Positions 26,048 through 39,585 of a DNA stretch of 64,000 nt are shown here, piece by piece. Each line of letters begins with the position of its first letter. The stretch's first letter is position 1. The DNA is taken from the NCBI GenBank assembly GCA_022823725.1, contig JAJEHL010000017.1:1-64000 (forward strand), given 5' to 3'. The DNA is from Candidatus Latescibacterota bacterium (lineage in GTDB: Bacteria > Latescibacterota > UBA2968). Position numbers and translations under genes: made by a program. The notes under the pieces were generated by a model, which did not search any database, had not been told where the DNA came from, and worked only from the letters and a program-made list of their open reading frames with translations.

Positions 26048-26886
26048 GCCTGCCCGTCGTCCTCGCCCACGGCATCGTTCCCTTTGACGCGCTCTACCGG
26101 CCGCTCATCCAGGCGGGGCTACGCAAGTTCTTGCGCCCGCCGGACAAATGCGACTACTTTAGCGGGATCGCCAGCCACCTCGAAAACCACGGCTACACCG
26201 TCTTCGCCCCCCGCGTCCCCTTCGCCGCCGACGTGCATAAGCGCGCCCAGGTCCTGAAGCACCGCGTCGAAGTCATCCTCAAACGCACCGGAGCCGACCG
26301 CGTCCACGTAATCGCCCACAGCATGGGCGGCCTTGACACTCGCCACATGATCGTCGATTTCGACATGGCCGACCGCGTCGCAACGCTAACGACCATCGGC
26401 ACGCCGCACTGCGGCACCTCCTTCGCCGACTTCGGCCTTGCCAAAGCGGACTGGCTGATCGGCTTCACCGGCACCTTCGGCCTCAACATCGAGGGCTTCC
26501 GCGATCTCAGTACCAAAGCCACCGCCGCCTTCAACGCACGCGCGCTGAACGCCGAGGCACAAAATCCCGTCCGCTATACCACCTACGCCGCCCACCAATG
26601 CTATGAACGGATATTCACCCTGATGAAGCCGTCCTGGAAAGTCATCGCCGAGCGCGAAGGCGCCAACGACGGACTGGTGCCCGTGGCCTCGGCCGCATGG
26701 ACCGACAAGTTGGGATCGAAGACCGTGCGCCAGGAAGCCTTTCCCGTCCCCGCCGACCACCTCAACGAGTTGGCCTGGTGGGACCCGTGCGAATTGCGCG
26801 ATCCCCGACAAGCGAGAAAGTCATTCAAGGCCGAAGTTCGCGACGCCTACCTCAAAATGGTTCGCGATGCCGAGCAGATCGGTTGA
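26044..26886 (+). CDS. Alpha/beta-hydrolase, triacylglycerol-lipase-like
   Basis: This 280-residue lipase-type hydrolase has the nucleophile elbow AHSMGG (S93), probable acid D209 (GANDGLVP) and histidine H239 (PADHLNE). The N-terminal VVLAHGIVPFD carries the oxyanion-hole HG. No signal peptide is present, so it may be cytoplasmic. It is clearly richer in GC than the surrounding island genes, which hints at a separate origin. It starts inside a truncated higA and ends 11 nt before the helicase start, within the same direction. Lipases and phospholipases can be effectors in defence systems, but nothing here proves that role. Confidence 0.75.
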   Translation: MSLPVVLAHGIVPFDALYRPLIQAGLRKFLRPPDKCDYFSGIASHLENHGYTVFAPRVPFAADVHKRAQVLKHRVEVILKRTGADRVHVIAHSMGGLDTRHMIVDFDMADRVATLTTIGTPHCGTSFADFGLAKADWLIGFTGTFGLNIEGFRDLSTKATAAFNARALNAEAQNPVRYTTYAAHQCYERIFTLMKPSWKVIAEREGANDGLVPVASAAWTDKLGSKTVRQEAFPVPADHLNELAWWDPCELRDPRQARKSFKAEVRDAYLKMVRDAEQIG

Positions 26887-26902
26887 AAGGAAGCGGGATG
26901 AA
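26886..26902 (+). repeat. Internal copy of the 17-nt island repeat
   Basis: AAAGGAAGCGGGATGAA is identical to 25982-25998 and 40344-40360. Here it supplies the ribosome site and ATG of the helicase gene, as each copy does for its own downstream reading frame. Confidence 0.85.
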
Positions 26903-29900
26903 ATCACAGAATTCCCACAAGCAAAAAGACAAACATATTCTGGACAATCGCCTCAATACAGTCGTCGATTATCTGCGCGGACATCTGCCCACCGCAGAGA
27001 TATTTCGACTGGTATCGGCGTATTTCACCATTTACGGCTACGAAGCCCTGCAAAACGAATTGCACGGTATAAAGGACGTACGCTTTCTCTTTGGCGATCC
27101 GGCATCGGTTGGCGAAGTAGATCCCAGTGAAAAAACGCAAAAATCTTTTGACTTAATTGAGGGGCAGCTCTCGCCGAATCACGCATTGCAGCAAAAATAT
27201 CTCGCGCAACAATGCGACAAATGGGTACGCAGCAGAAGGGTCAAAATTCGCTCTGTCAGCAAATCCAATTTTTTGCACGGCAAAATGTACCTCACCGAAT
27301 CTGAAAACGGCGGCGCAGCAGTGGTCGGCAGTTCCAACTTTACCCGCAGCGGTTTGGGCTGTGGCACAAGTGCAAATGTGGAAATCAACCTGGCGACTGA
27401 CGACGCGGAAACACGCGCTGAACTCAGCACCTGGTTTGACGACCTGTGGGCAGACGAAGAATTGACCAGCAATGTAAAAAGGGACGTGCTGAGCGCACTG
27501 GCGCGAATCGGTCAAGACCATGCGCCAGAATTTATCTATTACAAAACGCTATACGAGTTGTTCCGCGAAGATATAGAAGATAGACAAAGGGGCGAAAGCC
27601 AACTGGAGGATACACACCTTTATGATACCCAAATTTGGAACGCGCTGTACGATTTCCAGAAAGATGGAGCCAGAAGCGTTATCGGTCGCCTGTTGCGACA
27701 CAATGGGTGTATCTTAGCCGACAGCGTGGGATTGGGAAAGACCTACACGGCGTTGGCGGTGATCAAGTTCTTTGAATTGCGAAATGAGCGGGTGCTGGTC
27801 TTATGCCCCAAAAAACTGCGCGAAAACTGGGCATTGTATCCGGCGTATAACTTCCATACCAATAATCCTTTCGACGATGATCGCTTTAGTTACACGTTGC
27901 TATCGCATACCGATTTGTCTCGCAATAGCGGAGCAGTCGGCGATATCGATCTGGCAAATTTCAACTGGCGCAATTTCGATCTGGTGGTTATCGATGAATC
28001 CCATAACTTCCGCAATGAATCAAAACCTCGCTTCGATGATGACGGCAATATTCGCCATAGCCGCTACTCGCGGTTGTTGGAAGAGGTGATCAAAGAAGGC
28101 ACCCAAACCAAAGTACTGATGCTTTCAGCCACCCCGGTCAACACCTCGCTTATCGACCTGCGCAATCAAATCTATCTGATGACCGAAAAGCGCGAGGATG
28201 TATTCCGAAACAGCTTGGGCATTGGACATATCGGAACCTTACTGGGACGGGCGCAAAAGGCGTTTAAGGCATGGGAGAATAATTCAACTACAAAAAGAGA
28301 CAAGGCCGAGTTATTAGATAACCTGGGTGCTGATTTCTTTCATTTATTGGGCGGCGTCTCCATCGCCCGCTCGCGACGACAGATCAAGACGTTTTACGCC
28401 AAGGAAATGGATAGAATCGGCAGATTTCCCACACAGCGGGCACCGGATAATGTCTATCCACAAACCGACATAAGAGGCGATCTTTCCTATCGAGATTTGG
28501 CCAATCAGATAGGTCAATTCGCCCTATCTATCTACCGCCCATCCAGCTATGTCATCAGCGCAGAGGCAAAGAAACGGCTGGCAGACGAAAAAAAACAACT
28601 GCGGTTCAATCAAGCAGACCGCGAGCGCTTTCTCATCGGCATGATGCAGACAAACTTTCTCAAACGTCTGGAGAGTTCTGCACATGCATTGACGAAAACA
28701 CTCGAGCGTACCATCGGTAAAATAAACGATCTATTAGAAAAGATAGGTCGCTACGAGCAGATGCCAGCGATACAGGATGAACAGGCCGATATACTGCCCG
28801 ACGAAGATGACGAAGACGAAGAGTTTCTCATCAATCGGGCACGCACTCCCTACCATCTGCGAGAATTGGATTTGCCTCGCTGGAAAAAAGACTTACTAAA
28901 AGACAAACAAACCCTCACAGCAGCCTGGGAAAAGGTCGGTGCTATCACACCGCCACGAGATGACAAGCTCAAAACCATTCGGGAACACATTCAGGGGAAG
29001 GCACAAAATCCGACGACTGATCAGGACGGCAAGATCAATCGCAAGATGCTGGTATTCACCACCTTTAAGGATACGGCGGAATACCTTTACGAAAATTTGA
29101 CAGAGTTGGCAAAAGAACACAGATTGAACATGGCAATGGTATCCGGCGACGCGACACGCACCACTTTCGGCACTAACGACTTCAACACCATCCTGACCAA
29201 CTTCGCCCCACATGCACGCCAGCGCAGCAACGGCGTGGCTGGAGAAATTGATCTGCTCATTGCTACCGACTGTATTTCTGAGGGACAGAATTTGCAAGAC
29301 TGCGACACCGTGCTCAACTACGACATTCACTGGAATCCCGTACGCATCATCCAGCGCTTTGGACGCATTGACCGCATTGGCAGCCGCAACCGATCCGTGC
29401 AGATGATCAACTACTGGCCCACCAAAGACATGGACGCCTATTTGCGCCTGCAAAGCCGCGTAGAAGCACGCATGGCCCTGGCAGACGCAGCTGCCAGCGG
29501 TGATGATGACCCGTTGAACGACTACGCCTTTGAAGAAGCGCAAATGGAACTCAATTTCCGCGACGAGCAATTGAAGAAATTGCGCGAAGAAGTGCTGGAC
29601 TTTGACGAGTTATCCGACGGCGTCGCCATGAGCGATTTCACCCTCGATTACTTCTTTGCCCAATTGTTGCGATATTTAGAAAAAAACAAAGCAGAACTGG
29701 AGGCAACGCCCTATGGAGCCTATGCCCTGACCGATGGCGAGAGCGATTCCACAAGGCCGGGCGTGATATTCTTCCTGCGCCAGCGTAACGCCAGCGAGGA
29801 TAAGCGAGAAAAAGTAGCCAGCCCAATTCATCCTTATTACGCCGTGTATATCCGCGATAACGGCGACATTCGCTACGGCTGTGCCAATGCCAGACAAGTG

Positions 29901-30188
29901 CTGGAATTGTTTGAATCCGCAGCCATTGGTAAAACCGAGCCACTGCAAAAACTCTGCGACCAGTTTGACCACGAAACCCAAAATGGCAAGGATATGGCCC
30001 GCTACGACCAATTGTTGGACAAGGTAATGAAGCACATCAACAGGGCAAACACCTCAACGCAGATCCAGCAACTGGGCATTCACGGTCCACGCGATATTAG
30101 ATTACCTGTAAAATCTGAAAATACTACCGACGATTTTGAGTTGGTAACATGGTTGATCATCCTCGACTCGGGGATGCACACACCATGA
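26898..30188 (+). CDS. PLD-domain SNF2-type helicase
   Basis: The 1096-residue protein starts at ATG 26898, chosen because AAAGGAAG precedes it. The N-terminal third is a phospholipase D-like nuclease domain with HGKMYL (H127) and GSSNFTRSG. Then comes an SF2/SNF2 helicase: DSVGLGKT near residue 275-283, VIDESHNF near 365, LSATPVNTS, and the C-terminal [12 protein letters not shown] and [11 protein letters not shown] motifs. Helicases of this build accompany Eco57I-type methylases in restriction-like loci, and this one lies upstream of such a methylase. DISARM and BREX core genes are absent. Its TGA overlaps the higB ATG. Confidence 0.85.
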
Positions 30189-30859: not shown

Positions 30860-32497
30860 ATGAACAATGATGACCTCAAAGAGCGCATTCGAGTTGCTTT
30901 GACCGATATGCCCAACAAAAATTTTCTATTGGCGACCAGAGATATTCTCGATGTTCTTGGGTATCAGAGCGAACGCATAATAGAACTCTCAGGTGATCCA
31001 GAGGACTTCATCCAGCAATTTCCTGCCCTAAACGAAAACACCAGTACTGAACAGACATTCCGCAAGCACATCCAATCCATACGCATCGTCTTTCAGATGA
31101 CAAATGATGAAATCGTCTCAGCCAATCAGCAGGCACCTGGGCTTAGGGCTACTTCCCGTAAGGAGGGCCGGCAGAAAAGCATTCTTTTCTTCGCCGTGGA
31201 ACTGAAAGAGAACAACTACGCCCCGGGGATATATGACGAATTTACGCGGGAGATCGATAAGCGAATAATCTTGCCAACCGTGGTTTTCTTCCGCGCTGGA
31301 GCACACTTGACCGTCGCGGTTATCGGTCGCCGTCCGCATAAGCTCGATGATAGCCGTGATGTGCTGGAGCGCGTCACGTCGTTGAGCAAGGATATTCCTT
31401 TAGAAAATCCGCGCCGTGCCGATATCGACATTTTTTCTCAGCTATCGCTGCCGGAGTGCGCCAAGTGGATGAAATCCAATGCCAAGCCGCACAACTGCGA
31501 AGGTTTGCTAGCTGCCTGGCTTGCCAAGCTGGACACCACAGAGCGCAACCAGAAGTTCTACCGATATACGTCCGACTGGCTTGAACAGGCGGTGTCTGAG
31601 GAGAAATTCCCAGAAGGGGAAGAGAACAATCTACGACTTTACTTCGGCGATGTCGTGGAGTCCACACCCCTTTCGAGGGAGCGCGAAGTAGAACTGGCCG
31701 ACCGCATCAAAAATGGCGATATGCGCGCCCGTGATGAAATAATCCAAGCGAATTTGCGCTTTGTCATTAACGTGGCCAAGAAATACCAGAATCGCGGGCT
31801 GCCCCTCTCGGACTTGATTAGTGCTGGCAATCTCGGGCTGATTACGGCGGCTGACCGCTTCGATGGGACGAGGGGCAACAAATTTATTACCTATGCGGTC
31901 TGGTGGATTCGACAATCCATTCTACAAACACTCGACGAGCATGTGCGTCTCGTGCGTCTCCCCGCTAACAAGGCCAGCTTGCTCAGGGAGATTTCCAAAG
32001 CCTCGTACAAACTGGGTCAAGACTGGGTTAGTGAGCCTGACATAGAAGAAATCGCCGCCGAACTCGAAGTCCCAGCCGAAGAGGACATAGAGGAAATCGC
32101 CGCCGAACTTGAAGTCCCAGCCAAGAAAATTCAAGAAACTATCCTCAGCGACTTCGACGTGTACTCGCTCGACGAATTCCTCACCGACGACAACCGCAGC
32201 TTGCTTGACACCTTGACCGATAACACGACAACTCCCCTTGACGCCGACATCTTACGCAAATCAGCGCTGACACAAGCCTTAGGGCTTCTCAAAGAACACG
32301 AATCGCGCGTTATCACGCTCTATTTTGGCCTTGATGACAACGGACCTCTAACGCTCAATGAAATCGGCGACATGATGAATCTCACGCGCGCACGCATTCA
32401 CCAAATCAGGAATCAAGCACTCAGCAAACTGCGCCGTCGAATGAGTTACCAAGCGCTGGAGACGCTGATTACATGGCCCAATAAGATAAACTATTGA
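30860..32497 (+). CDS. Fusion of a methylase-type N-terminal domain with a sigma-70 factor
   Basis: This 545-residue protein has two unrelated halves. Residues 1-252 are homologous to residues 1-252 of the downstream methylase: shared words are ELSGDxEDFIQQ, AVELK (E114-L-K116, a possible ExK nuclease motif), RRPHK and the LLAAWLxKLD region. Residues 258-530 form a full sigma-70 factor: region 1.2 with 2.1 (YFGDVVESTPLSREREVELA), region 2 (ISAGNLGLITAADRFD), region 2.4 (FITYAVWWIRQSI), a region 3 with a 15-residue internal duplication, and region 4.2 (LTRARIHQIRNQAL). The junction is in one uninterrupted frame with a ribosome site (GAGGAA) before the ATG. Polymerase binding and -10 recognition look intact, while -35 recognition differs from the house sigma (TRARIHQI against TRERIRQI). 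Confidence 0.9.
   Translation: MNNDDLKERIRVALTDMPNKNFLLATRDILDVLGYQSERIIELSGDPEDFIQQFPALNENTSTEQTFRKHIQSIRIVFQMTNDEIVSANQQAPGLRATSRKEGRQKSILFFAVELKENNYAPGIYDEFTREIDKRIILPTVVFFRAGAHLTVAVIGRRPHKLDDSRDVLERVTSLSKDIPLENPRRADIDIFSQLSLPECAKWMKSNAKPHNCEGLLAAWLAKLDTTERNQKFYRYTSDWLEQAVSEEKFPEGEENNLRLYFGDVVESTPLSREREVELADRIKNGDMRARDEIIQANLRFVINVAKKYQNRGLPLSDLISAGNLGLITAADRFDGTRGNKFITYAVWWIRQSILQTLDEHVRLVRLPANKASLLREISKASYKLGQDWVSEPDIEEIAAELEVPAEEDIEEIAAELEVPAKKIQETILSDFDVYSLDEFLTDDNRSLLDTLTDNTTTPLDADILRKSALTQALGLLKEHESRVITLYFGLDDNGPLTLNEIGDMMNLTRARIHQIRNQALSKLRRRMSYQALETLITWPNKINY
32039..32128 (+). repeat. 45-nt in-frame tandem duplication in the sigma region 3
   Basis: Two 45-nt units (32039-32083 and 32084-32128) differ at only two synonymous positions over their first 39 nt. 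They encode DIEEIAAELEVPA twice, the helix-turn element of sigma region 3. The house sigma at 44102-44962 has one such element (EEEIAEELDIPVEQV). Confidence 0.9.
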
Positions 32498-32618: not shown

Positions 32619-35600
32619 ATGAGTAGCGATTTTCAAACAAAGCAACAGATTTCATCGACTCTGGCAACGATACCTGATAGCGATTTTCTGGCGGCGACTA
32701 AAGATCTATTGGCAGTTCTCGGATACAGGAGCGAGCGCACGTTGGAACTTTCAGGCGATATAGAGGACTTTATCCAGCAACTTCCCGCCCCAACCCAGCA
32801 CACCAAGACCGAGCAGGATTTCTGTGAAAACGCCCAATCCGTGCGGTTCATTTTTCAGCTTACCAGCGATGAAATCGCCTCCAGCAATCAACAGATGATA
32901 AATTTTGAAGCGACCTCTTTTGACACTGGAAATACAAGTAGTTTTATCTTTTCTGCCGTAGAACTGAAGAACGACACCTACGCTCGTGGGCATTACGCGC
33001 AATTCACCCGCGAGATCAACAAGCGCTTGAGTCAACCGTCCGTCGTACTTTTCCGTACCACATCCAACCTGCTCACCCTCGCCTTTGTTCACCGCCGCCC
33101 ACACAAGCGCGATCCCAACCGCGATGTGATGGGTAGCGTGTCGCTGATCCGAGAAATTGATCCCACCGATCTACATCGCGCCCACTGGGACATCCTTGCG
33201 GAATTATCTCTGCCTAATCTTTTGTCGTGGATGGACGTCAACAACCAGTCGCACAACTTCGGTGGCTTGCTCGCCGCGTGGCTGGACAAACTGGATACCC
33301 AAGAACTCAACCGTCGATTCTACCGGGATTTGTACAACTGGTTTGAGCGTGCTATTGAAGAAGCCTCTTTCCCCAAGAATCAGACGCAAACCATATCATC
33401 AGAAGAACATGTCATTCGCCTTATTACTCGCCTGTTATTCGTCTGGTTTATCAAAGAAAAGGGGCTGATCGTCGAGGACCTGTTCATTAAGAATAAGGTT
33501 CGTGACCTGCTTAAAAATTACGACCACGAAACCGGCGACTCCTATTACCGCGCTGTGTTGCAAAACCTGTTTTTCGCTACCTTGAACACCGAAATTGACA
33601 AGCGCCGTTTCAGCAAACAGAACCGTGCCGACCACCGCAATCCTTCCGTGTACCGATACCGGGAAGAGATTGACGACCCCGACAGCCTGATCAAATTGTT
33701 CGAACAAACGCCCTTCATCAACGGCGGTCTGTTTGACTGCCTGGACAGCTTTGAAGGCGTTAAGGCAGGTGGCACTCGCATCGATTGCTTTACCGACAAT
33801 CCCGCCCAGCGCCGCGACTATTCCATCCCCAACCACCTATTTTTTGGTAAGAATGGACTGATCACCTTATTCAAAAATTACAAATTCACGGTGGAAGAGA
33901 ACACGCCCATAGAGCAAGAAGTCGCACTCGATCCCGAACTGCTCGGCAAGGTGTTTGAGAACCTACTGGCGGCTTATAATCCGGAAACGCGCGAAACAGC
34001 CCGCAAGCAAACCGGCTCCTACTATACCCCGCGCCCCGTAGTGGACTATATGGTGGAAGAGGCTTTAATGGCGTCACTGGTGGAAAAATGTCAGCCGACC
34101 GATGGCGATGTAGAGTACTGGCAAGATCGCTTGCGTTATCTGCTGGATTATGAGGACGCATTCGACGACGCTAATGATCTTTTTGAGGAAGAAGAAGCGG
34201 AAGACATTGTGCGAGCGATTGCAGACATCAAAGTTCTGGACCCCGCAGTTGGTTCTGGTGCGTTTCCCATGGGCATGCTGCACAAACTCACTCTGGCGTT
34301 GCGGCGGCTTGACCCCGGCAACAAACGCTGGGAAGCGCTACAAAAAGAACGCGCCAGAGCAAAGGCAGACGCGGCGTTTGAGACCCAAAACCAACAAGAA
34401 CGCAATGCCGAATTGCTGGAGATTAGCGAAACCTTCGAGCGGTATTCGGGAGACTTCGGTCGCAAGCTCTATCTGATCCAAAACAGCATCTTCGGCGTGG
34501 ACATTCAGCCCATCGCCTGCCAAATTGCCAAACTACGCTTTTTCATTTCGCTGGCAATTGAGCAAGAACAAGATGAGGATGCCGACAACTTCGGCATCAA
34601 GCCCCTACCAAATTTAGAGACACGCTTTGTCGCCGCAGATACGCTGATCGGTTTACAGCTATCCGAAGCCAGATCTCTACTTCAAGATGACACTGTACAG
34701 CAATTGCTAAAAGAAATTGAGGCGATTCGCGAAAAGTATTTTCTCGCAAACAACCGACCGCAAAAGCTTCAATACACCCGCCAAGAGCAAGCCTGCCGTG
34801 ACCAATTGGATCAAGCACTAACAGCACAAAAAGAAGAATGGGCAGCGCGCCAGCAACGGGACATAGACGAAAGAGTTGCCCGGATTCCCAACCCGAAAGA
34901 CAGAGAAAAATTACGTGAAAATGAACTAAAAAAGTATAGTCTGCGCGAAAAACGTTTCGACGCCAGTCTTGAGGCCGCACGGAAAGTCGCACACTGGAAA
35001 CCTTACGACCAAAACGCCAAAGCAGACTGGTTTGAGTCCGAATACATGTTCGGCATAACCCGCGGATTTGACGTGGTCATCGGGAATCCACCGTATATCC
35101 AATTACAAAAAAACAGAGGGGAATTGCGCCGCCGTTACCAATACGCTGCCTTTGAAACCTTTGCCTCCACCGGTGATATCTATCAGCTTTTTTACGAAAA
35201 AGGCTGCCAACTGCTCACACCACAACGCGGTTTGCTGTGCTACATCACTTCCAATAGCTGGCTGAGAGCAGAGTACGGCAAATCTACACGCCGTTACTTT
35301 GCCGAGCAACAGACACCATTACAATTGCTGGAAATGGGCAAGGACATTTTTGAAAATGCTATCGTTGACACCAACATACTGGTAATGCGCGGAGGCAAAA
35401 GCAATGAGACCGGCAAGGCGGTAGATATGGACCGCTTACCCGATAAAAACTTCCCGCCCTCCGAGCACCTATGGGGTACATTTCAACCACAGAGTGAAAA
35501 GCCCTGGAGCGCACTTTCAGCCATAGAGCAACCCATTATGGACAAGATGGAAACCATTGGGGTGCCGCTGAAAGAGTGGGATATATCCATTAACTACGGA

Positions 35601-36332
35601 ATTAAGACTGGTTACAACAAGGCTTTTATCATAGATAATCAGACTAAGGAGAGATTAATTATCCAAGATCCTAAATCTACTGAAATCATTAGGCCAGTGT
35701 TGCGAGGAAGGGATATTAGCCGTTACAAGGCTAACTGGGCGGGACTGTGGTTGATTGACACTCATAATGGATACGGCGATGTTTCCTCTGTTGATATTGA
35801 CGACTACCCGGCCATCAAAAGCCATCTGGACACATTCTACCTAAAACTGGAAAAACGCTACGATAAAGGCAGAACACCTTACAATCTCCGTAATTGCGCT
35901 TACCACGCAGAGTTTTCCAAAGAAAAGCTAATCTGGATGGATCTGACGGAACGAGGACGATTTGCCTATGATATGGATGGCCTGTTTTGCTTAAACACGG
36001 CATTTATTATGTCAGGTCCATCGATCAAATATTTATGTGCCCTGCTTAATTCTAATCTGATAACTTGGTTTATGAGAAACACTGCCATGAATTCTGGAAT
36101 GGGTGTTACGAGATGGATTAATGCTTCCGTAGAATCAATCCCTATTCCGAAAATCACTGCAGCAGAGCAACTTTCGTTCATCCGATTAGTTGACCGTATC
36201 TTGAAGGCTAAAGCCTCTAACCCAACAGCCGATGTTAGCGAACAGGAGGCAGAGATAGACCGGCTAGTCTACGCCCTCTACTATCTGGACGAAAAAGAAA
36301 TCGCTGCGGTAGCGGTAAAAGACAAATCCTGA
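32619..36332 (+). CDS. Eco57I-type adenine-specific DNA methylase (restriction-modification or defence)
   Basis: The 1237-residue protein has an N-terminal domain with AVELK (E115-L-K117, possible nuclease motif), shared with the sigma fusion just upstream. A helical linker follows. The N6-adenine methylase core has motif I DPAVGSGAF near residue 545 and motif IV NPPY near 823. The C-terminal TaqI-like specificity region is about 960-1220. This arrangement fits type IIG or PglX-like enzymes. Residues 1003-1011 (FIIDNQTKE) are encoded by a 27-nt sequence repeated in inverted orientation at 37105-37131 within a spare tail, so the last 226 residues look exchangeable. Ribosome site: GGAG before the ATG. 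Confidence 0.88.
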   Translation: MSSDFQTKQQISSTLATIPDSDFLAATKDLLAVLGYRSERTLELSGDIEDFIQQLPAPTQHTKTEQDFCENAQSVRFIFQLTSDEIASSNQQMINFEATSFDTGNTSSFIFSAVELKNDTYARGHYAQFTREINKRLSQPSVVLFRTTSNLLTLAFVHRRPHKRDPNRDVMGSVSLIREIDPTDLHRAHWDILAELSLPNLLSWMDVNNQSHNFGGLLAAWLDKLDTQELNRRFYRDLYNWFERAIEEASFPKNQTQTISSEEHVIRLITRLLFVWFIKEKGLIVEDLFIKNKVRDLLKNYDHETGDSYYRAVLQNLFFATLNTEIDKRRFSKQNRADHRNPSVYRYREEIDDPDSLIKLFEQTPFINGGLFDCLDSFEGVKAGGTRIDCFTDNPAQRRDYSIPNHLFFGKNGLITLFKNYKFTVEENTPIEQEVALDPELLGKVFENLLAAYNPETRETARKQTGSYYTPRPVVDYMVEEALMASLVEKCQPTDGDVEYWQDRLRYLLDYEDAFDDANDLFEEEEAEDIVRAIADIKVLDPAVGSGAFPMGMLHKLTLALRRLDPGNKRWEALQKERARAKADAAFETQNQQERNAELLEISETFERYSGDFGRKLYLIQNSIFGVDIQPIACQIAKLRFFISLAIEQEQDEDADNFGIKPLPNLETRFVAADTLIGLQLSEARSLLQDDTVQQLLKEIEAIREKYFLANNRPQKLQYTRQEQACRDQLDQALTAQKEEWAARQQRDIDERVARIPNPKDREKLRENELKKYSLREKRFDASLEAARKVAHWKPYDQNAKADWFESEYMFGITRGFDVVIGNPPYIQLQKNRGELRRRYQYAAFETFASTGDIYQLFYEKGCQLLTPQRGLLCYITSNSWLRAEYGKSTRRYFAEQQTPLQLLEMGKDIFENAIVDTNILVMRGGKSNETGKAVDMDRLPDKNFPPSEHLWGTFQPQSEKPWSALSAIEQPIMDKMETIGVPLKEWDISINYGIKTGYNKAFIIDNQTKERLIIQDPKSTEIIRPVLRGRDISRYKANWAGLWLIDTHNGYGDVSSVDIDDYPAIKSHLDTFYLKLEKRYDKGRTPYNLRNCAYHAEFSKEKLIWMDLTERGRFAYDMDGLFCLNTAFIMSGPSIKYLCALLNSNLITWFMRNTAMNSGMGVTRWINASVESIPIPKITAAEQLSFIRLVDRILKAKASNPTADVSEQEAEIDRLVYALYYLDEKEIAAVAVKDKS
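35625..35651 (+). repeat. 27-nt inverted repeat, copy in the active methylase
   Basis: Perfect inverted match to 37105-37131. It encodes FIIDNQTKE in frame, while the flanking sequence differs much more between the two copies. Probable crossover site for tail exchange. Confidence 0.9.
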
Positions 36333-36390
36333 GTAAATTAAATGCTAAATAGTGTAAAAACATAGTTTTGTGAGCTGTCATGTGGATTGT

Positions 36391-37185
36391 CTATAGTAAA
36401 GGTTGCTCTTCTACTGCGGAGATCTCCGCCCCCGTCAGTCCATACAATTCGTAAACCCGCAGGTCAATCTCGGCTTCTGTAGCTGATACATCGGCATTCG
36501 AATCAGTCGCTCTAGCCGTCAGGATATGCTCCATTAGTTCGATAAACCTGTACTGATCCCCCGCTGATAATTTGGGGATGGGAATTGTTTCAACATACGC
36601 TTTTTTCCATTGAAATGTTCCCATACCCGATGTTGGTGCTGTCTTTTGGAGAAACCAGCGTATCAAATTGGTATTCAGTAATACGCAGAGATATTTGATG
36701 CAGTCACCAGTCATCATAAATGATGAGTCCAAACAATATAGCCCCCTGTCATCGTAGGCAAAGCGTCCATTATCAACCAGTGTGATCCACACCAATTTTT
36801 CTTTTTCAAATTCTGCGTGGTAAGCGCAAGTATCCTGTAATTCGTACCAAGCATGTGTAGTCTTTTTTCTGGACTTTGTGCCATTCGAAAGGGTTCTACC
36901 CGACTGTTCTAACCTCGCTTTGCCAAAAGACAGCAAATGCCTTTTCACTTCTGGATAATCATCAATGTTGAGCCCAATAGCAGGAAATGTTGCTATCAGC
37001 CAGAGTTTTGTACTTTCCCAATCAGCTTGATACCTCTGAATATCCCTCCCTCTTAAAACTGGCTTAATAACCTCAGCCGACTTCGGATCTCTTTCAATCA
37101 GTGCCTCCTTAGTCTGATTATCTATGATAAAGGCCTGATTATACCCGGTTAAAACTCCTCGGTAAATGGATAAACTCCTTGATAA
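36391..37185 (-). pseudogene. Silent, inverted alternative specificity tail of the methylase
   Basis: Read on the minus strand, an open frame runs from about 37185 to a stop at 36391 with no start or catalytic domain. It begins SIYRGVLTGYNQAFIIDNQ and has TKEALIERDPKSAEVIKPVL, RGRDIQRYQADW and IPIPKLSAGDQYRFIELM, all homologous to the end of the active methylase but clearly diverged. Beyond the shared FIIDNQTKE it gives 237 residues. The frame is intact, so it is a donor cassette rather than a decayed gene. A second identical patch of 18 nt exists (35894-35911 against 36812-36829). An ATG at 36948 could in principle yield a 185-residue fragment. Confidence 0.85.
37105..37131 (-). repeat. 27-nt inverted repeat, copy in the silent tail
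   Basis: Exact reverse complement of 35625-35651, in the same reading frame (FIIDNQTKE). Inversion of 35652-37104 would place the silent tail on the active gene. Confidence 0.9.
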
Positions 37186-37259: not shown

Positions 37260-38252
37260 ATGACATCATCTTCTCAGTCTGATGCAATCAAAATAGACTT
37301 TTATAGCGAGGTGGTTTCATCCGCTTTAGCGGACAATACCCGTATCGCCTATGACAAAGGTTGGTCTTGTTTTAGCGATTATTGTGACTCTCAAAATATC
37401 TGCTCCTTATCTGCCACGCCAAAAGACATTGCTAATTTTATTATTGAACTGGCGACACGTCCCAGACCGTCAAGTGGAAAAATACTTTCTATGGGTACGG
37501 TAGTTTTATATCGAAGCGCAATCAATAGGAAATATGTTGAGTTAGGAATCCCATCTCCCACTAACCATCCTAATGTCAATGCCGTTGTGAAAGGACTTGC
37601 GCGGCTTAGAGGCACAGCCAGCCGTCAGGTGAAGGCGTTAAGAGAGTATCACATCAAAAAAATGCTGAACATATGCGACCTGACGGCAAACCAAGCAGGG
37701 AAAAAATTAATCTGCCTACGGGACGCCGCAATTATTGCTATTGGATTCGCTGGCGCACTTAGGCGATCAGAGATATGTGGACTTACAACTGATGATATTG
37801 AAATCATACCATCCCCAGATGGTCTAAAAAAAATGTTTCTCTATATTCGCAAATCAAAGACGGATCAAGAAGGAAAAGGGCATAAAATCGCTATACCGGG
37901 GGGTAAATACTTAAAACCTATAAAAAGGCTGCAAGATTGGTTGGAGGCATCAGGAATTACTGATGGACCAGTATTCCAGACAATGAGGCGTGGAGGCACA
38001 CTGCGAGGCAAATCGATGCACCATTCGGATATTCCCCGCTTGGTTAAATATTATGCAAAATTAAGCGGCTTAGACGAGAAGGAGATATCAGGACATTCAT
38101 TAAGGGCTGGTTTTGTTACCAGCGCGGCTTGTCACAATGCTCGCTTAGATAAAATAATGGAAATCACCAGGCATACAAATCCCTCAACTGTAATGAAATA
38201 CATCCGCGATGCCGATTCGTTCACAGATCATGCCGGTGAAAAATTTTTGTAG
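37260..38252 (+). CDS. Tyrosine recombinase (phage-integrase family)
   Basis: This 330-residue recombinase starts at ATG 37260, after CAGGAG. The N-terminal core-binding domain (ADNTRIAYDKGWSCF) is followed by the catalytic domain with R168 (GALRRSEIC), a lysine in IRKSKTDQ, the HSLR box (H279, R282), H305 (TRHTN) and Y314 (MKYIRDAD), so it should be active. It lies directly beside the invertible cassette and is read away from it. In BREX loci, recombinases next to inverted pglX copies drive phase variation, which suggests the same job here. It may instead be the integrase of the island. Confidence 0.88.
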   Translation: MTSSSQSDAIKIDFYSEVVSSALADNTRIAYDKGWSCFSDYCDSQNICSLSATPKDIANFIIELATRPRPSSGKILSMGTVVLYRSAINRKYVELGIPSPTNHPNVNAVVKGLARLRGTASRQVKALREYHIKKMLNICDLTANQAGKKLICLRDAAIIAIGFAGALRRSEICGLTTDDIEIIPSPDGLKKMFLYIRKSKTDQEGKGHKIAIPGGKYLKPIKRLQDWLEASGITDGPVFQTMRRGGTLRGKSMHHSDIPRLVKYYAKLSGLDEKEISGHSLRAGFVTSAACHNARLDKIMEITRHTNPSTVMKYIRDADSFTDHAGEKFL

Positions 38253-38415: not shown

Positions 38416-39585
38416 ATGATCCTAAGAAAATGGCTATTCGACGGGGGAAACCTTAGATATGTCCTCCAAGACCAAGGTCAAAAGATTCGTAATGAAATCA
38501 ACTCTCTCAGCGAAAACCAGATACTCAATACTTTAGAAGATGACCTTTGCAACTACTTTTTCGAGAAATACAAAGTAGAAACACTCCAAATTGATGAATC
38601 GCAGATCCAAATGGATTACAGTGCTTATGCAACGGGAATCAGAATCACGTTTTACATACCGTTCACCGGTGACCGGAATCTATTCGAGCAAAAGCCATCT
38701 ACGTTCAGTCCCAACCCACCACGCGCATACGTGGGTGAGAGTGAGATCGTAATGACCTACGAGCGGACAACCTATGAAGCTGATCAAATTGAGGGTGAGT
38801 TCAAGTCTGAACTGGAGAGATTAAAAAATTACCTGAAATGGATAGAGCAGGATATTACGCCATTCAACTCATCAATTCGCGAAACAGCATCTCAAGAGAT
38901 CAGCATCAGACGAGAGAAAATACTCAAGAATAGAGATCTGGTAGAGAAGATAGGTTTCCCGCTCCGACGTAGGCAAGATACGCCCGATACCTATATCGCG
39001 CCGCAAGTGAAACGGGTCATCACTCCAAAACTTCCGCCTGTATCCACTGCCCCCTACAAACCGGAACCCACACTGGATATGCAAGAGTACGAACATATCC
39101 TGTCAGTCGTTTCGAACATGGTCATGGTTATGGAACGTAGCCCCAAGGCTTTCAGAGATATGAACGAAGAGGATCTGCGGCAACACTTTCTCGTACAGCT
39201 CAATGGCCAATATGAAGGCCAAGCCACAGGCGAAACCTTCAACTTTGATGGCAAGACTGACATCCTGATCCGCGTAGATGGTAAAAACATATTTATCGCT
39301 GAATGCAAATTCTGGAAAGGTCCAAAGGCATTTAAAGAATCCATTGATCAGTTACTGAGTTACTCTACCTGGAGGGATACGAAGACCTCCCTTCTCGTGT
39401 TCAACCAAGATGCCGAGATGTCCACTGTCCTCAAGAGGATACCTGAAGTAGTTAAAGACCATCCTAAATACAAATCAAACCGGGACTATGACTCAGAGAC
39501 TGGTTTTCGGTACATACTCAGGCATCGCGATGACGCAAATAGGGAAATCGTGCTCACAGTACTCGTCTTCAATATTCCTGTATGA
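38416..39585 (+). CDS. Predicted PD-(D/E)xK nuclease-like protein of the island
   Basis: This 389-residue protein has a C-terminal segment DGKTDILIRVDGKNIFIAECKFWKG (residues roughly 278-302), which fits the D...ExK core of restriction-endonuclease-like folds. The following ESIDQLLSYSTWRDTKTSLL fits the helix after it. The N-terminal half (residues 1-230) is not recognised and includes a possible helical pair around 120-150. It probably cleaves or binds DNA, but this rests on the motif alone. It stands downstream of the recombinase, separated by 163 nt that hold no gene, and the small gene at 39701 may be its partner. Confidence 0.6.
   Translation: MILRKWLFDGGNLRYVLQDQGQKIRNEINSLSENQILNTLEDDLCNYFFEKYKVETLQIDESQIQMDYSAYATGIRITFYIPFTGDRNLFEQKPSTFSPNPPRAYVGESEIVMTYERTTYEADQIEGEFKSELERLKNYLKWIEQDITPFNSSIRETASQEISIRREKILKNRDLVEKIGFPLRRRQDTPDTYIAPQVKRVITPKLPPVSTAPYKPEPTLDMQEYEHILSVVSNMVMVMERSPKAFRDMNEEDLRQHFLVQLNGQYEGQATGETFNFDGKTDILIRVDGKNIFIAECKFWKGPKAFKESIDQLLSYSTWRDTKTSLLVFNQDAEMSTVLKRIPEVVKDHPKYKSNRDYDSETGFRYILRHRDDANREIVLTVLVFNIPV

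Follow-up and report, generated by a model that had tools for sequence, protein, structure and literature searches.

A probable nested inversion that exchanges the specificity domain of a Type IIG-like restriction-methyltransferase in a Latescibacterota bacterium

Introduction

Does a methyltransferase gene of a Candidatus Latescibacterota bacterium, probably a sponge symbiont, exchange its C-terminal end by DNA inversion, and if so, at which site and by which enzyme? The question is raised by a stretch of 64,000 nucleotides, here called the window, in which a first-pass annotation had noted a 27-nt inverted repeat, a homologous tail on the opposite strand and a neighbouring tyrosine recombinase gene. 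It had proposed recombinase-driven inversion at the repeat, and had cited hsdS and BREX pglX as known cases of phase variation by inversion.

Phase variation of pglX by inversion is known, and Type II restriction-modification systems are reportedly among the gene-altering inversion families newly predicted by Milman et al. in 2023. Inversion of hsdS is well known (PMC5903667, PMC4948785), and the BREX phase variation mentioned in PMC6326788 involves a homopolymer tract. Domain movement by recombination at repeats has been described for Type IIG S genes of Helicobacter pylori, where the S subunit is separate, TRD1 and TRD2 move within one gene and the machinery is unknown (PMC3077401).

In the present study we describe the locus and its relatives in other genomes. 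We consider it likely that the locus undergoes programmed, nested DNA inversion, which swaps the C-terminal part with which a Type IIG-like restriction-methyltransferase recognises its target.

Results and Discussion

The enzyme and its class

The gene lies at 32619-36332 on the forward strand and encodes 1237 amino acids. Its product matches REase_MTase_IIG in PADLOC (4.8e-143) as well as the Pfam families Eco57I (4.8e-35) and TaqI_C (4.4e-15), and carries the methylase motifs DPAVGSGAFPMG and NPPY. A gamma-type amino-methylase core, the Eco57I signature and a TaqI-like specificity domain are thus found in a single chain, and these domain matches make the enzyme Type IIG-like, with an Eco57I methylase fused to a TaqI_C specificity domain. 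Residues 1-255, for which there is no Pfam nuclease match, contain a VELK motif that is by eye compatible with PD-(D/E)xK. The predicted model of residues 441-1237 (mean pLDDT 87) is similar to CamA, M.BseCI, BrxX/PglX, MmeI and BpuSI. Residues 1-991 form the fixed part of the protein and residues 992-1237 the exchangeable part.

The enzyme is neither an hsdS nor a PglX, and the first-pass reading is corrected on this point. Like BREX pglX/brxX, the gene encodes a single-chain adenine methylase with a C-terminal specificity domain of, as modelled, similar fold. Unlike them, it reaches only 71.7 bits with NCBIfam BREX_1_MTaseX, far short of the PglX cut-off of 500, and no other BREX gene (pglZ, brxC etc.) was recognised among the neighbours scanned at 26.7-39.6 kb.

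Two homologous tails in inverted orientation

The active exchangeable tail (35592-36332, forward strand) has the hinge NYGIKTG and a specificity half of type alpha. The silent tail, on the opposite strand at 36391-37167, lacks a start codon and is stop-free down to 36391, with 258 open codons followed by a stop; its hinge is YRGVLTG and its half of type beta. The C-terminal part of the silent tail matches Pfam TaqI_C (3.8e-11), and a predicted model of this tail alone (pLDDT 74) is like the specificity domains of M.BseCI and CamA.

The 27-nt repeat, referred to below as site II, occupies 35625-35651 on the forward strand in the gene arm and 37105-37131 on the reverse strand in the silent arm. 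The first-pass description of it was accurate throughout: one copy is the exact reverse complement of the other (27/27), both read FIIDNQTKE in frame, and inversion in silico keeps the frame open, yielding 1248 amino acids instead of the present 1237 and swapping the 226 residues after the repeat for 237. The tails are also, as had been noted, homologous in protein and diverged in DNA. Outside the repeat, codons for identical residues match at only 56 of 123 positions (46%), against 9 of 9 inside it; pooled over eight loci with a tyrosine recombinase, the counts are 46/53 in the repeat and 382/848 in the rest (Fisher P = 1e-9). The window, and relatives likewise, hold a silent, homologous, inverted tail that is in frame on inversion.

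The recombinase and its association with silent arms

A tyrosine recombinase, likely the invertase, is encoded at 37260-38252 on the forward strand. Its ATG at 37260 is indeed 129 nt from the 27-nt repeat and gives a product of 330 amino acids; an in-frame TTG at 37179 is a possible alternative start. The protein matches Phage_integrase (4.6e-15), and its nearest solved relative is Cre (2.4e-9). The motifs ALRRSE, KSKTD, GHSLR, TRH and Y-IRD are kept across 13 aligned relatives, and the catalytic R, K, H-x-x-R, H and Y of a tyrosine invertase are present together with a short core identical in both sites (see below). A reading of the recombinase in the same-genus genome G031 as broken was rejected, the stop being placed directly before a start codon.

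A genome scan yielded 79 loci that encode a relative of the Type IIG-like enzyme, many of them apparently in MAGs of sponge association. The survey of downstream regions was limited to loci with at least 2.5 kb downstream. In four of these, a second, inverted tail is accompanied by a recombinase with 58-60% identity to that of the window; two have the tail without this recombinase, 53 have neither, and none has the recombinase without a tail. With the window added, the association of tail and recombinase has a Fisher P of 4e-6 for loci that are not fully independent; P values across loci in general overstate independence, the loci sharing ancestry. The search for the recombinase itself covered the bacterium's own phylum, Chloroflexota and one order of Gammaproteobacteria (∼870 genomes). 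All 12 relatives at 57-66% identity adjoin a silent arm, and no member of this subfamily was found away from silent arms in these ∼870 genomes. By comparison of genomes, this arrangement, with a recombinase of 57-66% identity, recurs in about a dozen genomes from at least three phyla. Three of these loci (L062, G288 and G176) have conserved tails and recombinase but heads with only 27-41% identity to that of the window over much of their length, so the tail pair and the recombinase behave as a module. No further copies of the cassette were found in the bacterium's own genome. Low G+C was considered as a sign of import of the module and rejected, as free-standing tails are also G+C-poorer than their heads.

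It is very improbable that the recombinase is a mobile-element integrase located by chance beside a duplicated tail. Tyrosine recombinases with ∼36% identity, annotated as integrases, are indeed common on plasmids, where only such distant relatives were found, and a 47% identical relative from Thioalkalivibrio sp. HK1 is not beside a tail. However, recombinase position and orientation are constant in loci of several phyla, at 71-281 nt from the core, and the 57-66% subfamily occurs nowhere else in the ∼870 genomes searched. No relatives of the recombinase were found in viral contigs. The Thioalkalivibrio gene (L138, G072 C23, 5502-6443) encodes a 45-47% identical recombinase, with no specificity tail detected nearby.

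An 8-bp core as the likely crossover

When the gene arm is aligned with the recombinase arm of the same locus, homology starts at a core of 7-8 bp, and the left flanks are unrelated. In the window this core, TATCCATT, lies at 35584-35591 on the forward strand in the gene arm, where it codes I-S-I (residues 989-991), and at 37165-37172 on the reverse strand in the recombinase arm, where its outer side is non-coding. The two copies, here termed site I, each lie 33-40 nt beyond the outer end of the 27-nt repeat, and the homology between the arms extends ∼12 codons beyond the repeat, ending at the identical core.

Over seven core positions in 10 loci, the gene arm equals the recombinase arm at 69 of 70 positions, compared with an identity of 0.67 between loci, and none of 20,000 shuffles was as high. 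On comparison of these loci the core therefore covaries, being kept between the arms in 10/10 while differing from locus to locus. The same 10 loci have no within-locus identity excess at the left flank or the hinge. Protein constraint fails to explain the identity of the core, because the recombinase-arm copy is non-coding on its outer side.

Site I is likely to be the recombinase crossover, and the 27-nt repeat is unlikely to be where the recombinase mainly acts; we infer from the alignments that the recombinase acts at site I. The original proposal is thereby modified: inversion driven by the recombinase and swapping the tail is well supported by the shared architecture, the reversed relative, the open frames and the presence of both hinge arrangements among relatives, whereas the crossover would move from the 27-nt repeat to the 8-bp core. 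With a crossover at the core, the invertible segment would be 35584-37172, and ∼257 residues would replace ∼246.

The sequences next to the core are consistent with this assignment. L008 and L066 have matching half-sites to the left and right of each core, with GATA-N8-TATC at the gene and AGTT-N8-AAC(T) at the recombinase. Those of the window and G031 are recombined (GATA-N8-AACT and AGTT-N8-TA[T/C]C), as would be expected of the product of an exchange at the core. The dyad centred on the core is weak, and spacers of 6, 8 and 10 score alike, so its spacer length is not fixed. As pairing of half-sites within their own site shows no excess at the recombinase arm (P = 0.87), the dyad provides a weak argument only.

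Orientation and reciprocal exchange in related genomes

The opposite orientation was sought in relatives and found in the same-genus genome G031, in which 1.27 kb (window 35622-36877) is reversed relative to both flanks. The tails of the two genomes are reciprocally matched in the comparison, with crossed values of 0.66 and 0.69 against 0.50 and 0.51. Because the block is reversed from 35622 yet the hinge types are the same, the join between the window and G031 arrangements is placed at site II. Between L008 and L066, the first specificity half is crossed (0.76 vs 0.56) and the second is uncrossed (0.70 vs 0.45), the crossed part being only the stretch between sites II and III (see below). Both orientations are thus seen between related genomes (window against G031, and the hinge arrangement among loci), and the window assembly has a single orientation. 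Switching would presumably be ongoing in the source strain.

A silent tail that is a one-way gene-conversion donor, or a dead duplicate left by an old rearrangement, with no programmed switching, would also fit the one orientation of the source assembly, and gene conversion likewise keeps short blocks identical. We regard this explanation as highly unlikely, since exchange between the relatives is reciprocal rather than one-way and the recombinases are intact. The silent frames are also open in 11 of 12 loci, and 240 unconstrained codons would rarely be stop-free.

Three fragmented assemblies bear on programmed inversion as well. The two contigs of G022, one with the gene and one with the recombinase, break off precisely where their common 24-nt site II ends and carry opposite hinges, the pattern expected of a mixed population that recombines at site II; in G067 the corresponding contigs end at or shortly after site II. 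The gene contig of G042 stops inside a 39-nt identity at site II, and the following contig opens 6 nt ahead of a 49-nt identity at site III. These ends are suggestive of a branching assembly graph caused by both orientations, although strain variation or coverage might equally produce them. G042 also has a damaged core and hinge in its recombinase arm (L137, C64, ∼1219-1290), and this locus may be locked. In G031, the enzyme gene appears to be interrupted near codon 667 by a probable insertion sequence, inside which both contigs end (L135 and L134; C77 and C101).

Probable inner exchange points

Site III is a perfect inverted pair of 18-nt repeats at the CAYHAE motif, where the first half of the specificity domain gives way to the second (gene arm 35894-35911, forward strand; silent arm 36812-36829, reverse strand). 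A within-locus identity excess was found in the region of site II (0.86 vs 0.72, 10 loci), and a smaller one at the CAYH block of site III (P = 0.0006). From these identities and the exchanges described above, sites II and III look like further exchange points of a nested system, at which exchange would proceed either by the recombinase or by homologous recombination. Both may be sites of passive homologous recombination or gene conversion, because the 27-nt repeat is absent from L008 and L066. That the 27-nt repeat has no role was considered and rejected in view of G022 and G031.

If homologous recombination at sites II and III were the whole explanation of the tail exchange, the recombinase would be a passing mobile element or a relic. 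This is in keeping with the nature of both sites, which are short identical coding stretches with no obvious recombinase-site structure, and with the exchange at these blocks between the window and G031 and between L008 and L066. We nonetheless consider it unlikely: the recombinase subfamily is confined to silent arms (12/12; 0 in 53 checked loci without an arm), the 8-bp core, identical between arms in 10/10 loci, is too short for homologous recombination, and two loci without the tyrosine recombinase carry a serine recombinase in its stead.

Hinge type did not significantly predict tail sequence (P = 0.12 and 0.06), which fits a decoupling at site II. Either hinge (NYG or YRG) occurs with either first half (alpha or beta) in active genes of the relatives, which gives four combinations: N-alpha in the window, N-beta in G031, Y-alpha in L008 and Y-beta in L066, L023 and L062. 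The pairing of alpha with beta is not an absolute rule, because G176 has beta in both tails.

A serine recombinase variant

In two distant loci, L042 (Anaerolineales) and L044 (Planctomycetaceae), the gene that comes after the inverted tails encodes a serine recombinase (Resolvase matches of 5.6e-36 and 1.7e-34). Homology between the arms starts ∼170 nt further upstream in these loci, at AGCGTTT..., with 13 and 23 nt identical, and the silent tail of L044 is broken in the frame read. Judged by these two loci, the same tail swap seems to have been adopted by different invertases.

Proposed mechanism and significance

In the programmed inversion that we favour, the Cre-like tyrosine recombinase would cut and rejoin DNA at the 8-bp core, at the first strand of the specificity domain. 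A segment of 1.59 kb would flip, and the silent tail would be joined in frame to the fixed part, which holds the methylase and the putative nuclease. Exchange at sites II and III would mix the hinge, first half and second half between the two copies. A more elaborate version, which we put forward tentatively and hold to be somewhat short of an even chance, is a combinatorial shufflon in a single-chain Type IIG enzyme, with three nested points, independent assortment of hinge, first half and second half, and independent adoption of the swap by tyrosine and serine recombinases. If so, up to eight active proteins could be made from one silent partner.

Like known invertible specificity loci, this one has a silent inverted specificity segment adjoining the expressed one, inverted repeats in coding sequence at more than one position and, as is often the case, a tyrosine recombinase nearby. 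It differs from them in that one Type IIG-like polypeptide would contain nuclease, methylase and specificity, in its one silent partner, and in an 8-bp core that varies between loci. It resembles the Helicobacter pylori Type IIG S genes (PMC3077401) in altering specificity via recombination at repeats, and is unlike them in having a silent partner and a dedicated recombinase. A literature search of partial coverage found nothing on recombinase-driven Type IIG inversion, nor this enzyme subfamily with a recombinase, core site, nested points or serine variant.

Inversion would be expected to change the DNA motif that is methylated and restricted. With the putative nuclease, methylase and specificity in one polypeptide, the specificities of restriction and modification should therefore switch jointly, and after a switch the bacterium's own genome would be open to cutting for as long as the new sites lack methylation. 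The means by which self-cutting is avoided would then become a question for experiment. Because the 7-8 bp core varies and its neighbours are conserved, the loci offer a series of recombinase sites provided by nature. Several lineages, apparently sponge-associated ones among them, carry the module, which would cause the phage defence and methylomes of uncultured symbionts to vary within a population.

Neighbouring genes

The sequence at 38416-39585 encodes a 389-aa protein with no Pfam match, whose sole match is the PADLOC candidate PDC-S54 (1e-151). On the other side of the locus, 26697-30188 encodes a PLD and SNF2 helicase protein (PADLOC C3a139, 6e-113). Between this gene and that of a sigma factor lie a HigB-like toxin and then a probable HigA-like antitoxin. 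The helicase and toxin/antitoxin neighbourhood is possibly one defence island. Over its first ∼255 residues, the sigma-70 factor (30860-32497) shares 51% identity with the Type IIG enzyme's N-terminal domain, and a VELK motif is common to both. L014 and L018 have the same sigma-70 fusion upstream of the enzyme gene; in L019, L020, G022 and G042 a homologue of the N-terminal domain is encoded upstream. A transcription factor with a restriction-enzyme domain is unusual.
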